Shown here one piece after another: positions 14,833 through 22,041 of a DNA stretch of 34,277 nt. Source of the stretch: Planctomycetota bacterium (lineage in GTDB: Bacteria > Planctomycetota > Planctomycetia > Planctomycetales > Planctomycetaceae); the NCBI GenBank assembly GCA_003671275.1, contig QWPB01000168.1:1-34277 (forward strand). Reading direction: 5' to 3'. The notes beneath the pieces were generated by a model. The model did no database searches, was not told where the DNA came from, and saw only the letters and a program-made list of their open reading frames with translations. Position numbers and translations under genes: made by a program. The first letter of the stretch is position 1. Each line of letters starts with the position of its first letter.

Positions 14833-15918
14833 TTAGTCCCAGTTCTTGGGCTGCATGAACCACCACCATTTATCCGTCTTGGTGCTGAAGCGAAGGCTCC
14901 AGCTGCCGTCTTTCCACTCGAGGGTGGACTGCCGCCAGTTCATGGGAACCTGCGGGTACGGGTAGAACGGACCGATATACGGGAATGCACTGGCATCGTA
15001 CTGGCTGGGGTAGGTCACAGCCGCGTAGTTGTCATTCTGGGCATAAGTGGGCCAGGCGTATTCCGGAACGTTCGGCTGGTTGTACATCATATGATGACCC
15101 GCCGGGGCGATGCCACCGCCGGGATAACCCATTCCAGGCTGCATCTGGGGAGCCCCACCCATGGCCTGCGGAGGCAGACCGGGCGGCAGCTGACCTTCAC
15201 CTACGGCGAGTCCCGCTGGATAAACCGGCCCCTGCTGCTGAGAGATGGGCTGTCCCTGAACGGTCAGACGGTTCAGCACCTGCTGCACCCCGCCGACGCT
15301 TTCGGCAGCCTGTTGAGCCTTCATGGCTTCGGCCTGGCTGGCCACATCGCCGAGCAGGCTGCAGGCTCCGTTTTTGTAGCGAATTTCAATGTCGTATCCG
15401 CTCAGCCCGGCGGAAGCCATCTGATCAGCGATCGCCTGAGCAACCACCTGATTCGAGGGAGCGGCCTGCTGGGCGGCTTCTTCGTACTGCACTCGTTGGA
15501 TTGGCTGCCGACCACCGGTCGACTCAGCCCGAGCCGGAGCGACGGACTGGATCGGGCTCAGCTGATTATCCACGGTTTCGACACCCGGCGTGCGCGAGGC
15601 GACTTGAGTCGCTTTCGCCAGTTGCTGGGCATCCATGATCTCCCCGGTGAGCGTCGCAACGCCCTCAAGGACGACAATTCGAATTCCCTTGCCCTTGAGC
15701 CCGGCGGCCTTCATGCCGTTGGCGATTTCTTGGGCAATGGCGTCGTTGGAGCTGGCTGGTTTCGCAGCCGCCGACTTCTCAGTCGACTCCGAACGGGCAG
15801 CGGTCTGGGCAGGACGTGCGTTCGACTTCTTCAATCCGTCAAACGGCCCGGCCAACGCAATCGCGGGCGCCGACGCGAGCAGTCCGATGGACAGCACCCA
15901 TTTCCGTGGCAGAAGCAT
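14833..15918 (-). CDS. Secreted protein with two BON domains and a Tyr/Pro-rich tail
   Basis: This 361-aa exported protein has a signal peptide at 1-23 (MLLPRKW, hydrophobic core, cleavage after ALA). Two BON domains follow: about 57-125 (IRIVVLEGVATLTGEI) and 155-221 (YDIEIRYKNGACSLLGDV), each ending in a VDNQLS/VLNRLT-like strand. BON domains are associated with envelope or phospholipid-related functions. The region 225-320 is low complexity, rich in Gln, Pro, Gly, Met and Tyr, and the last 40 residues are aromatic (TDKWWWFMQPKNWD). GAAGGAG 8 nt upstream supports the ATG. It forms a single-gene unit with its own terminator. A periplasmic structural role is an inference. Confidence 0.88.
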   Translation of the reverse strand: MLLPRKWVLSIGLLASAPAIALAGPFDGLKKSNARPAQTAARSESTEKSAAAKPASSNDAIAQEIANGMKAAGLKGKGIRIVVLEGVATLTGEIMDAQQLAKATQVASRTPGVETVDNQLSPIQSVAPARAESTGGRQPIQRVQYEEAAQQAAPSNQVVAQAIADQMASAGLSGYDIEIRYKNGACSLLGDVASQAEAMKAQQAAESVGGVQQVLNRLTVQGQPISQQQGPVYPAGLAVGEGQLPPGLPPQAMGGAPQMQPGMGYPGGGIAPAGHHMMYNQPNVPEYAWPTYAQNDNYAAVTYPSQYDASAFPYIGPFYPYPQVPMNWRQSTLEWKDGSWSLRFSTKTDKWWWFMQPKNWD

Positions 15919-16522: not shown

Positions 16523-17182
16523 ATGCTCCGTCGTCACTTCCTGCATACCACACTCGCCTCGCTGGTCGCATTCAGCGCCACTGGCTGTCGAGGCAAACAG
16601 CACGCTCACGTCCTCAGCAACGACGATCAGGACATGGTCGGCAGTCATGCCGCCGGGGCCGAAACATGGAAGCCCCTGATCGACGAGTCTGTCGGCAAAC
16701 TACTGGCCCGGCAGTGTTCCGATATTCACCCGGTGTCACTGGATGGCGATGGTCAGCCCGAACGAAAGCGGGTCTGCTTCATGGGAGTCGAGAACAAAAG
16801 CTCCGAAGAGCTGGGCGACTTCCGCGAGCAGATTTACGACCAGATCGACTCATTGGTCAGCCAGTCCGAACAGTTCCAGCTGGTCAGCAAACGCTTCGTT
16901 GATGCGGGACTCAAGGAGTGTCGGTTGAAGCCGGACGACCTGTTCGTGCCCGCGAATTCGCGGATGTTTGCGGCCTCGATGGAGAAGCTCGAACAGCCGA
17001 TTGACTACCTGCTGTTTGCCAAGATCACCTCGGGAACAACCAGCAGCAATGGCGACTATCAGCGGGATTACCAGCTGGTACTCGACCTGGTCGACACCAA
17101 CACCGGCGAGTACGACAAGGAATCGGCGACCCTCCGCAAGGGCTATCACAAGTCGAAGCTGTCGAAACTCAAGCACTACTAA
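16523..17182 (+). CDS. LpoB-like lipoprotein (penicillin-binding protein activator family)
   Basis: This is a 219-aa lipoprotein. The signal peptide ends in a lipobox SATGC with lipidated C22 and follows a basic MLRRH start. The mature part has the LpoB/CsgG-N-like alpha-beta arrangement: KRVCFMGVENKSSEE (82-96) as first strand and loop, a helix at 103-115 (IYDQIDSLVSQSE), LVSKRFVDAG (120-129), a central DYLLFAKITSG (161-171) and YQLVLDLVDTNTGE (183-196), ending in a basic tail. In enterobacteria LpoB activates PBP1B from the outer membrane. The ATG at 16523 was chosen because GAGG lies 6-7 nt upstream and it gives the lipoprotein signal. The next gene, another lipoprotein 68 nt downstream, is its likely partner. 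The role in this organism is uncertain. Confidence 0.82.
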   Translation: MLRRHFLHTTLASLVAFSATGCRGKQHAHVLSNDDQDMVGSHAAGAETWKPLIDESVGKLLARQCSDIHPVSLDGDGQPERKRVCFMGVENKSSEELGDFREQIYDQIDSLVSQSEQFQLVSKRFVDAGLKECRLKPDDLFVPANSRMFAASMEKLEQPIDYLLFAKITSGTTSSNGDYQRDYQLVLDLVDTNTGEYDKESATLRKGYHKSKLSKLKHY

Positions 17183-17250
17183 TGCGGACCCGCTTTCTTC
17201 GGGAAAGTTGCCGAAGTCGCCATCGACGGAAGCAATCACGGTGATCGCAT

Positions 17251-18657
17251 ATGCGTCTGAGCCTCCATTCACAGTCAGAGACCCCTCGAATGCCCTGCTG
17301 GCAATCCGGGCTGGTCGCATGCGGCTTGGCACTCATCGGGCTGATGGGCTGTGCTTCGCATGTGGATCGCCTGCATCCCGTGCGAACCGAGTTCTATTCA
17401 GGACGGTTGCCCGAAGCACGCATCGAAGTCGACAAACTCGCCAGGAAACATTCCGAAGACCGGGATGTCTTCGAATTGGACCGGGCGATGATCGAGCTGT
17501 GTGCGGGAAACCCGAAAGAGTCCGAGAAGATTCTGCGGGGAGTCCGTGACCGGTTCGACAAGTACGAAAAGAAATCGGCCAAAGAACTGGCCGAGGCAAT
17601 GCTGACCGATGACACCAAGATCGCGTATGCTGGGGAGGATCACGAAAAGATCCTGATCCGCACGTTTCTGACACTGTCCAATTTGATGGCCGACGGGCAA
17701 GATGCGGATGCCTACGCCTTGCAGATCGGAGCCAAGCAGGCCGAACTGACGGCAAAGCTCACCAAGGACCACGAAGAGCTGCGAAAGAAGGCGGAAACGG
17801 CACCGGCGCCGCCCGAACTGCCTCAGGTGGCCTTGGGGCCCTACATCCAGGCGATGCTGCACGAGGAGACCGCGACCGATGCCAGTGAAGTGGTCCGGGC
17901 GCGGGAGATGGTGGTTTCCTATGTCCCCGGCTTCCGCGATGGCCAGGCCGATCTCGATCGGGCGATGGGAGACAACGACATCCCCCTCGATCATGGGGCG
18001 ATCTATGTATTCACCCTGGTCGGACGCGGCCCCACGAAGGAAGAGTCCGAAGATATCCCCACTCAGGTCGCCTTGCTGATTGCCGATCAGATCGTCAGCG
18101 CCGTGGCTAAGCAAACCGTCCCACCGACGCTGGCCCCCATCAAGGTCGCCAAAGTCGTCCGCCGTCATAACCGTGTCCAGAGTGTCCACGTCCATCTGGA
18201 TGGCCAGTCTGAAGGTTCCACGACAACGTTGGTCGACGTGGGACAACTGGCCGTATCGCATTATGAGGCCCACTATCACGAGGTGATCGCTCGGGCTGTC
18301 GCTCGCCGGGCCATCAAAAAGGGGGCGGTCTACATCGCCAAAGAATCACTCCACGCCGAGTCCAACCCCGTAGCCGATATTGCCTTGACCCTCGGCGGCA
18401 TCGCGTGGGAAGCCACCGAAGCCCCGGACACCCGCTGCTGGGGATTGCTCCCGGACAAGATTCAGGTGTGCCGGATCGTGGCGCCCGTCGGAACTCACCA
18501 GTTGCAGTTGCAGTCGGCGGATACCCACGGAATTTATGGCATACCGGCCAGCATCAGTGTCGACGTCCATGATGGCAGCAATACGTACGTCATGGCGAGC
18601 TTTCCAGACGACCGGATTGTGGGCAAAGCCCTGGTGAGTGGCGTCGACACCGAGTAA
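17251..18657 (+). CDS. Large lipoprotein, COG3014-like with repeat-rich N-terminus
   Basis: This is a 468-aa lipoprotein with lipobox IGLMGC (C34). The N-terminal half after the anchor is helical and TPR-like (about 45-165: FYSGRLPEARIEVDKLARKH, MIELCAGNPKESEKIL). The middle holds YVFTLVGRGPTKEE (about 252-265), and the C-terminus has beta-rich PVGTHQLQLQS and SNTYVMASFPDDR. This arrangement resembles the COG3014 lipoproteins of gamma-proteobacteria, which I recall as neighbours of LpoB-type genes; that comparison is from memory. The start could also be the ATG at 17290, which gives a tighter signal peptide; neither has a strong Shine-Dalgarno. It forms an envelope pair with the upstream gene. 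Confidence 0.8.
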   Translation: MRLSLHSQSETPRMPCWQSGLVACGLALIGLMGCASHVDRLHPVRTEFYSGRLPEARIEVDKLARKHSEDRDVFELDRAMIELCAGNPKESEKILRGVRDRFDKYEKKSAKELAEAMLTDDTKIAYAGEDHEKILIRTFLTLSNLMADGQDADAYALQIGAKQAELTAKLTKDHEELRKKAETAPAPPELPQVALGPYIQAMLHEETATDASEVVRAREMVVSYVPGFRDGQADLDRAMGDNDIPLDHGAIYVFTLVGRGPTKEESEDIPTQVALLIADQIVSAVAKQTVPPTLAPIKVAKVVRRHNRVQSVHVHLDGQSEGSTTTLVDVGQLAVSHYEAHYHEVIARAVARRAIKKGAVYIAKESLHAESNPVADIALTLGGIAWEATEAPDTRCWGLLPDKIQVCRIVAPVGTHQLQLQSADTHGIYGIPASISVDVHDGSNTYVMASFPDDRIVGKALVSGVDTE

Positions 18658-20113: not shown

Positions 20114-21922
20114 CTACGGGATCAGTGCTTTGACCATCTCGGCCAGCACCGCCCCGGAACCTGCGAAGACCGTCGGCTGGACTTGTACCGTCCCGTCAAT
20201 CGCCCCCTTCACATGGGTCAGCCGGAACGTCACCAGGTCGTCTTCACCGGTCATCGCCTTCAGTGCCACAGTGCGCCATTCCAGATTGCGGAACGCCCCC
20301 ATCGCATCGGTCGACTTGCCACCCGACTTCGACTTGGACTTCTTCTCGTCCTTGTCTTCGTCATCTTTCTTGAGGACCGGGTCGCTGGTCAAACCGGTGC
20401 TCTTCAGGATCTTCAGCAGATCGAAATCCTTCTCCGACATAAAGGCGTCGGAGACCTTCAACGTCGGTTTGGAGTGGAACTGAATATCGACAAAGTGCTC
20501 GATCGCCTGGGCTTCTCCCGTTGAGGCCAGTTTGGCCAGTTCTTTCAGGCGGTCCAGACTGCCCTCGCCTGTCGCAAAGCCGACAAAGGCGGGCCCGGCG
20601 GCGACATGCACCGTGCCATCACCACCGTAGAAGTCGAGCAGTGTCTTCGGCGGGTTGACGGGCTTGAACGTGTGAAACTGGATCTCTCCGTCGCTCCCGG
20701 TCTTCAGCTGGCTGGACCAGCCGGTCCGGACCTTTCCCAAGCTGGTCACAATCGTCTCGATCTGGGCTCGCACATCCGCTGAGCGGAAGCCCAGAAGGAA
20801 CGTGTGCTTGCCTGCGGTCGAGGGGGCAATGTCGTGGTAGACATCCAGAATCCCCACATCGATCGCGGAATCCAGTGCCTGAATACCCGCGTCGGACAGG
20901 GCGATGCGGGCCGCCTTTTCGTCGAACGACAGATCCTTGGCCTCGCTGATCCCCTGCTTCAACACGATCGGGCTGAGCTTATAGACCTCGCGGGCATTCT
21001 TCTTGGTCATCTCCGACAGCGGCAGCAGCAGTCGCATGCTGAAGACGGACTTGTCCGGAGTCTTGTAACCACCGAACACACTCTTACTGTTCACCAGGGT
21101 GGCAATCCACTGATTGAAGGCCGTATCGGGCATGGCGGTCCAGTGGGATTTTCCGGTGCCCGATCCTGCTTCCGGATCGGTCTTCCACGCCATCGACAGC
21201 TCTTGAGTCCCGGCAAACAGCTCACCGAACAGGTCGATCTGCTGCACGATCATGCGCTGCCGCAGCTCGAAAGCTTCCGCAGTCTCATTGCTGTTCTTTT
21301 TCAGTTTCTCCAGCCGCGTCGACTTGATCTTCTGAAAGGCGGCTTGACGGATGGGAATCTCTTCCGCGTGGCTCTGACTCGTGAAGAACAGATCCTGCCC
21401 TTCCGCCAGAAACTCCTTGAAGATCACCGGTGGCACCGGAAGATCGGCAGGCACATCGGCTTCCCGACGGGAGATCGTGGCGTAAGTGTTATCCTTGGGC
21501 AGTCGCATTGACCCTTTGTCGATCACGTCCCCGCTCAAGTTGTACAGCGACTTGGTCTTATCGCCCCGAACCGGATCGACATCGATCCCGGCAGGCACCA
21601 GATTGTCATCGATGAACTCCGATTTCTTGGACACCGGCACGCGGAAGACCTTCCGCAGACCATCCTGTCCATCGAATCGCAGACTGATCCCCACCGGCAA
21701 CTGGTCATCAATTCCCACCAGAAACGGCAGAATGTTTTCCTTGATCTTCTCTTCAAAAATCTTCGGCTGCTTGCCCTGCTTGGCAACGATGTATTCCAAG
21801 TCCGTAATCAACTCGCCGCCGCTCTTCATTCCCACATGCAGTTCGGGATCCGCAGCTGAAGCAGACGAGGTCCAGGAAAATGCGGAACAGGCCAGCAGTG
21901 CGAAGAACGACCGTTTATCCAT
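20114..21922 (-). CDS. Large secreted protein of unknown function
   Basis: This 602-aa exported protein has a signal peptide at 1-24 (MDKRSFFALLACSAF, cleavage after ASA). The body has an Asp/Lys-rich segment near residue 550 (KKDDEDKDEKKSKSKSGGK) and no transmembrane helix. Alternating beta-rich stretches occur (PVGISLRFDG, HVAAGPAFVGFATGEG). No enzyme motif or known family is evident to me; planctomycete genomes have many such proteins. The ATG at 21922 has GGAG 9 nt upstream and gives the signal peptide, so it is preferred over 21958. It forms a single-gene unit with a strong terminator. Confidence 0.82.
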   Translation of the reverse strand: MDKRSFFALLACSAFSWTSSASAADPELHVGMKSGGELITDLEYIVAKQGKQPKIFEEKIKENILPFLVGIDDQLPVGISLRFDGQDGLRKVFRVPVSKKSEFIDDNLVPAGIDVDPVRGDKTKSLYNLSGDVIDKGSMRLPKDNTYATISRREADVPADLPVPPVIFKEFLAEGQDLFFTSQSHAEEIPIRQAAFQKIKSTRLEKLKKNSNETAEAFELRQRMIVQQIDLFGELFAGTQELSMAWKTDPEAGSGTGKSHWTAMPDTAFNQWIATLVNSKSVFGGYKTPDKSVFSMRLLLPLSEMTKKNAREVYKLSPIVLKQGISEAKDLSFDEKAARIALSDAGIQALDSAIDVGILDVYHDIAPSTAGKHTFLLGFRSADVRAQIETIVTSLGKVRTGWSSQLKTGSDGEIQFHTFKPVNPPKTLLDFYGGDGTVHVAAGPAFVGFATGEGSLDRLKELAKLASTGEAQAIEHFVDIQFHSKPTLKVSDAFMSEKDFDLLKILKSTGLTSDPVLKKDDEDKDEKKSKSKSGGKSTDAMGAFRNLEWRTVALKAMTGEDDLVTFRLTHVKGAIDGTVQVQPTVFAGSGAVLAEMVKALIP

Positions 21923-22041
21923 CTGAGCGACTCCATCCGACGACCGGCTGACGGACACACCAGATCCGTTACTGCGCCCGATCCGTCTTGGTGAAGGATA
22001 GGCAAAGGCAACAGGCAGGGCAACTTACGTTTGAACGGTTG

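Follow-up and report, generated by a model that had tools for sequence, protein, structure and literature searches.

An LpoB-family lipoprotein paired with a COG3014-like lipoprotein in a planctomycete genome without class A penicillin-binding proteins

The window analyzed here is a stretch of 34,277 nucleotides from a Planctomycetota bacterium (contig QWPB01000168.1, assembly GCA_003671275.1). Two neighboring genes of the window, P0001 and P0002, are on the forward strand with 68 bases between them, and both encode a signal peptide followed by a lipobox (Table 1). A secreted-looking protein with two BON domains (14833-15918, minus strand) lies divergently upstream of the pair, and is not kept at other loci. 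Beyond the pair, a 614-aa exported-looking protein (20114-21958, minus strand) has no Pfam match even at an E-value of 1.

Table 1. The two lipoprotein genes and their parts, in positions of the window.
Feature	Coordinates	Strand	Description
P0001, LpoB-family lipoprotein	16523..17182	+	219 aa; Pfam PF13036; AlphaFold2 model closest to LpoB
P0001 signal peptide	16523..16588	+	Tat-like RRxFL motif (RRHFL), lipobox ATG/C22; from sequence
P0001 leash	16589..16663	+	25 residues, Pro/Gln-poor, lipidated Cys to helix 1 of the LpoB domain
P0001 LpoB (TolB-N/CsgG-like) domain	16763..17110	+	Pfam match, residues 81-196
P0002, COG3014-like lipoprotein	17251..18657	+	468 aa; lipobox LMG/C34; Aeromonas homologue; conserved linkage
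P0002 N-terminal TPR-like helical domain	17353..17970	+	residues 35-240; AlphaFold2, VIA TPR matches
P0002 C-terminal alpha/beta domain	17989..18615	+	residues 247-455; conserved ExADTRxWxxLP motif

P0001 belongs to the LpoB domain family. In a Pfam search it scores 33.2 bits with PF13036 (LpoB), for a cut-off of 22.3, and all 36 of the P0001 relatives that we scanned have an LpoB match. The AlphaFold2 model of P0001 (pLDDT 85.6) has the LpoB crystal structures as its nearest neighbors by Foldseek (E-value 1.9e-8), and VIA superimposes it on them with Z-scores of 13.9 and 13.8 (2.4-2.6 A over 126-131 residues). On this evidence of profile and predicted fold, the preliminary description was right to call the first lipoprotein LpoB-like. 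But membership in the domain family is as far as it goes, and P0001 fails three features of the PBP1B activator: the equivalog score, the docking partner, and the tether. For the first of these, P0001 scores 25.3 bits with the NCBIfam LpoB equivalog TIGR02722, vs. a cut-off of 110.55 that the LpoBs of Aeromonas, E. coli, and Azospirillum all pass. After LpoB, the structures closest to the model are GNA1162 (VIA Z 10.4) and CT253 (Z 8.7), then TolB, PelC, and CsgG; TraT is also among those reported by Foldseek and VIA. A sequence search of the PDB with profiles of both the P0001 and the P0002 families reports nothing significant.

P0002 has no match to any Pfam or NCBIfam model, and its relatives have weak Pfam TPR matches. 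Its homologue in Aeromonas is the protein whose gene stands between hinT and ycfL-lpoB (blastp E-value 2.5e-9). That protein scores 66 bits with an HMM of the window's clade (A4) and 246 bits with an HMM of a broader planctomycete family that includes P0002 (A5), and the Azospirillum protein of the same type scores 148 bits with A5. This homology bears out the identity that had been proposed for the second lipoprotein. The name COG3014 is used here as a presumed label for proteins of this type. We found no papers on COG3014 in the open-licence literature, which is itself only part of all literature.

The AlphaFold2 model of P0002 (pLDDT 91) consists of a TPR-like N-terminal solenoid followed by a C-terminal alpha/beta domain. 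Foldseek finds nothing at E-values <=0.001 for the whole model. For the N-terminal domain, the VIA list is filled by TPR structures, and the highest scoring one is LpoP 6w5q (Z 14.5, 2.1 A over 103 residues), with unrelated TPR proteins within one Z unit. We make no claim of a specific kinship with LpoP, because the Z-score is tied with those of generic TPR proteins. As for the signals, a Tat-like motif of the RRxF/L type is present in 24 of 36 P0001 relatives and in none of 44 P0002 relatives, so the two lipoproteins may, judging by their sequences, differ in their route of export.

The preliminary description saw in the pair a candidate for an undescribed system. The pair is no local oddity, as it belongs to a module that is widespread in Planctomycetota and is also found in Proteobacteria. 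In a sample of 199 Planctomycetota genomes, LpoB domains are found in 118, class A PBPs in 29, and P0002 homologues, using a single-sequence query, in 64. A P0002 match lies at 3 kb or less from a same-strand LpoB match in 55 of those 64 genomes. The adjacency of P0001 and P0002 is no chance event: an LpoB-like gene is found directly upstream of the P0002 homologue, on the same strand, at 63 of 80 named planctomycete loci, at times with an overlap of four bases between the two genes. Approached from the LpoB side, with an HMM built from nothing but the window's clade, a COG3014-like gene turns up no more than 1.5 kb away at 28 of the 30 LpoB loci with the highest scores. Of the 17 named loci left, five (L093, L110, L129, L130, L136) start so near a contig end that no judgment is possible. 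The other 12 have enough upstream sequence, are mostly from gut-derived Planctomycetaceae, and have P0002 with no recognizable P0001 adjoining it (L122, L123, L124, L126, L131, L135, L137, L138, L140, L141, L142, L143). Thus, P0002 can apparently act without P0001 in some planctomycetes.

Apart from each other, and from shadow ORFs, the two genes have no conserved neighbor at the 80 loci. In particular, they have no recurrent neighbor for peptidoglycan, exopolysaccharide, or secretion, and none that codes for a beta-barrel. One alternative is that the two proteins are parts of a machine for export or of the outer membrane, with P0001 forming a plug or ring in the manner of PelC, CsgG, or GNA1162, and P0002 serving as the TPR scaffold, as in PelC with the TPR part of PelB. 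That the structures closest to P0001 after LpoB are GNA1162, CT253, TolB, PelC, CsgG, and TraT, and that P0002 is predicted to be a TPR protein, both fit such a machine. The missing beta-barrel, exopolysaccharide, and secretion neighbors do not fit it; P0001 has none of the extra segments for CsgG-type membrane strands; and LpoB is clearly its nearest fold. We consider an export machine unlikely. Still, because the wider fold also serves PelC, CsgG, and TolB, a role in export or in outer-membrane homeostasis is a serious rival to the one that we favor.

Across the 199 genomes, the occurrence of LpoB is independent of that of class A PBPs (15 of 29 genomes with a class A PBP have LpoB vs. 103 of 170 without, Fisher p 0.42), while 59 of the 64 genomes with a COG3014-like gene also have LpoB (p 7e-12); the genomes are not phylogenetically independent, and these p-values are indicative only. 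Several genera of the window's family have class B PBPs and neither an LpoB nor a COG3014-like gene. In two other genomes of the same class as the window (G123 and G169, 99% complete), the PF00905 transpeptidase, LpoB, and the COG3014-like gene are all absent.

The independence from class A PBPs, the absence of the pair from some same-family genera, and the TolB-N-like fold of P0001 would also agree with a factor for outer-membrane homeostasis or stress that has no role in wall synthesis, PBP1B activation being then a separate and later invention of some Gammaproteobacteria. We think this improbable, given that the LpoB homologue of Vibrio cholerae, outside Enterobacterales, also works with PBP1B.

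What could an LpoB-like protein act upon in this organism? The host genome is a draft of 5.03 Mb, 99.2% complete, with one LpoB domain, and it shares its family with G196 of the planctomycete sample, which by its coordinates is Thalassoglobus neptunius. We detect in it no class A transglycosylase domain (PF00912), while positive controls were detected; profile searches of the same genome find no UB2H domain (PF14814), and there is no FtsZ/tubulin domain. It does have two proteins with a class B transpeptidase domain, in frames of 575 and 725 codons, and two RodA/FtsW proteins. With class B PBPs and RodA/FtsW present, only the class A PBPs are missing from its PBPs, and the gene content is therefore that of a wall-making bacterium without class A PBPs. 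The preliminary description noted that many planctomycetes are reported to lack canonical PBPs and FtsZ; in this genome the class A PBPs, UB2H, and FtsZ are indeed absent, but class B PBPs and RodA/FtsW are present. Absence of class A PBPs has already been published for Planctomyces (PMC8406291). In Planctopirus limnophila, both ftsI and ftsW tolerate deletion (PMC6952346).

In the planctomycete sample, none of 31 contigs with a class A PBP has a UB2H match. Other genomes have weak UB2H matches, in frames mostly of about 670-1,200 codons. We rejected these as PBP docking domains, since none lies on a contig with a class A PBP. Their probable identity is that of Mfd/UvrB relatives, because PBP1B's own UB2H cross-matches the UvrB interaction domain as well.

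The third feature is the tether, or leash, by which we mean the residues that separate helix 1 of the LpoB domain from the lipidated Cys. By alignment, the leash of P0001 has 25 residues with 8% Pro+Gln, vs. 58 residues and 40% for the LpoB of E. coli. Its length is 25-27 residues throughout the window's clade (using a motif-based measure). By alignment, other planctomycetes have 21-27 residues, Aeromonas has 23, and Azospirillum has 26, and the Pro+Gln content of these leashes and that of P0001 is 0-14%. On the other side, the LpoBs of E. coli, Citrobacter, Klebsiella, and Serratia have leashes of 45-60 residues with 40-53% Pro+Gln. E. coli LpoB reaches PBP1B by means of a disordered region, up to 145 A (PMC4632607), and a leash of 25 residues, as read from the sequence, cannot reach a synthase in the same way. 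A strict rule by which a short leash means a COG3014 neighbor did not survive, as it is broken by an LpoB with a leash of 31 residues and a different neighbor on a Marinobacter plasmid. In that plasmid (M. adhaerens pHP-187, L175:2502-4534), the LpoB-like gene adjoins one for a 457-aa protein that is not matched by the COG3014-like HMMs.

One can ask whether P0001 is nonetheless a functional LpoB, which would directly activate an unrecognized peptidoglycan synthase as in E. coli. Its predicted LpoB fold, the wall-synthesis enzymes present in the host genome, and the V. cholerae homologue all lean that way. But the host has no class A PBP or UB2H for it to dock on, no planctomycete class A PBP contig has a UB2H either, a leash of this length does not allow the reach mechanism of E. 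coli, and the score is far under the LpoB equivalog cut-off; so we consider direct activation very improbable. The preliminary description had named beforehand two results that would speak against its own reading, a fold unlike that of LpoB and a normal PBP1B with an interaction site, and neither occurred. Its claim that, without a PBP partner, the pair must do something else in the envelope is likely for this organism; the function given below is a proposed one.

Outside the phylum, the pair is part of a wider module. The E. coli cluster is hinT-ycfL-lpoB-thiK, with no COG3014-like gene between hinT and ycfL, and that of Aeromonas caviae is hinT-COG3014-like-ycfL-lpoB-thiK. In Azospirillum we find COG3014-like-ycfL-lpoB, and 16 planctomycete genomes have that same order as Aeromonas and Azospirillum. 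Four planctomycete genomes have ycfL-lpoB-COG3014-like, and the window's clade has lpoB-COG3014-like; the genomes sampled from the family to which the window belongs contain no YcfL domain. The gammaproteobacterial neighborhood named in the preliminary description exists in Aeromonas, but there the COG3014-like gene precedes lpoB, and ycfL is in between. Proteobacteria are represented by a handful of records, those of Aeromonas and Azospirillum coming from a plasmid collection in which the Aeromonas record is chromosome-sized. After the trio in plasmid p1 of Azospirillum sp. TSH100 (L174:4483-7084) come genes for a DUF6844 protein and for another protein that looks secreted, perhaps all in one operon.

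In Aeromonas, COG3014 and LpoB occur along with a PBP1B that has UB2H, and the LpoB homologue of V. cholerae acts in the PBP1B pathway (PMC4063736). From these two cases, the module and PBP1B activation can coexist, and they are not alternatives in Gammaproteobacteria.

We take as established the predicted folds, the homologies, the gene linkage across phyla, the absence of class A PBPs, UB2H, and FtsZ, and the short leash. The explanation that we favor, to which we would give about an even chance, is that P0001 and P0002 form an envelope lipoprotein module that has no need of a class A PBP, a docking pair that acts on a wall or envelope machine. Both proteins would be exported lipoproteins, and the +2 residue rule of E. 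coli makes the outer membrane their probable location. P0001 carries its LpoB/TolB-N-type domain on a leash that is short, at about 25 residues, and P0002 provides the predicted TPR scaffold and the conserved C-terminal domain. The P0001 domain most likely docks on P0002, a binding that we infer. From the outer-membrane side, the complex would then regulate or position wall synthesis by RodA/FtsW and class B PBPs, or else a wall-associated envelope machine. The weakest step is that wall synthesis is the target of the pair, which we regard as doubtful.

Several observations count against this docking-pair explanation. No peptidoglycan gene is kept beside the pair; export and outer-membrane machines also make use of TPR scaffolds and of the TolB-N/CsgG fold; the 12 mostly gut-derived Planctomycetaceae loci have P0002 and no adjoining P0001; and there are same-family genera with class B PBPs and neither gene. 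To these one should add the V. cholerae homologue in the PBP1B pathway, and the co-occurrence of COG3014, LpoB, and UB2H-bearing PBP1B in Aeromonas.

For the LpoB family as a whole, the recurrence of the pair across the phylum and in some Proteobacteria suggests that a COG3014-like protein is a more common partner than PBP1B. At a 100-bit cut-off, LpoB and UB2H had been found restricted to enterobacteria (Typas et al., PMC3060616). More tentatively, and with somewhat less than an even chance, the family could have its origin as a partner in a COG3014-LpoB(-YcfL) complex of the envelope, functioning independently of class A PBPs both in Planctomycetota and in Proteobacteria, the E. coli activator being a derived form that has gained a long Pro/Gln-rich tether and lost the adjoining COG3014.

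LpoB is the textbook case of outer-membrane control over wall synthesis. As the LpoB-COG3014 module is common in bacteria without class A PBPs, automatic labels of "PBP activator LpoB" can mislead. The module also makes COG3014 a concrete candidate partner for LpoB in those Gammaproteobacteria that keep both, and it is a handle on the control of the envelope in planctomycetes, with their FtsZ-free division and their walls made mostly without class A PBPs.

How does the pair compare with known systems? With the LpoB of E. coli and Salmonella (PF13036, TIGR02722), P0001 shares the fold (Z 13.8-13.9), the lipoprotein character, and a Pfam score over the cut-off. It differs from E. coli LpoB in having a Pro/Gln-poor leash of 25 residues and not 58, a Tat-like signal, a score far under the equivalog cut-off, a genome without a UB2H/PBP1B partner, and a COG3014-like gene next to it, of which there is none between hinT and ycfL in E. 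coli. The TPR domain of LpoP of Pseudomonas aeruginosa, a PBP1B activator that needs UB2H (PMC7267771), heads the VIA list for the N-terminal domain of P0002, in a tie with unrelated TPR proteins. P0002 differs in its additional C-terminal domain, in having no long disordered leader, and in a host genome without a UB2H PBP. GNA1162 and Chlamydia CT253 have the wider fold of P0001 (Z 10.4 and 8.7) and are clearly more distant than LpoB; CT253, too, is from a group without class A PBPs (PMC8406291). Finally, the cluster of Aeromonas caviae, in which ycfL is present, the gene order is the reverse of that in the window's clade, and PBP1B has a UB2H, is alike in having an LpoB on a short leash encoded beside a homologous COG3014-like lipoprotein.
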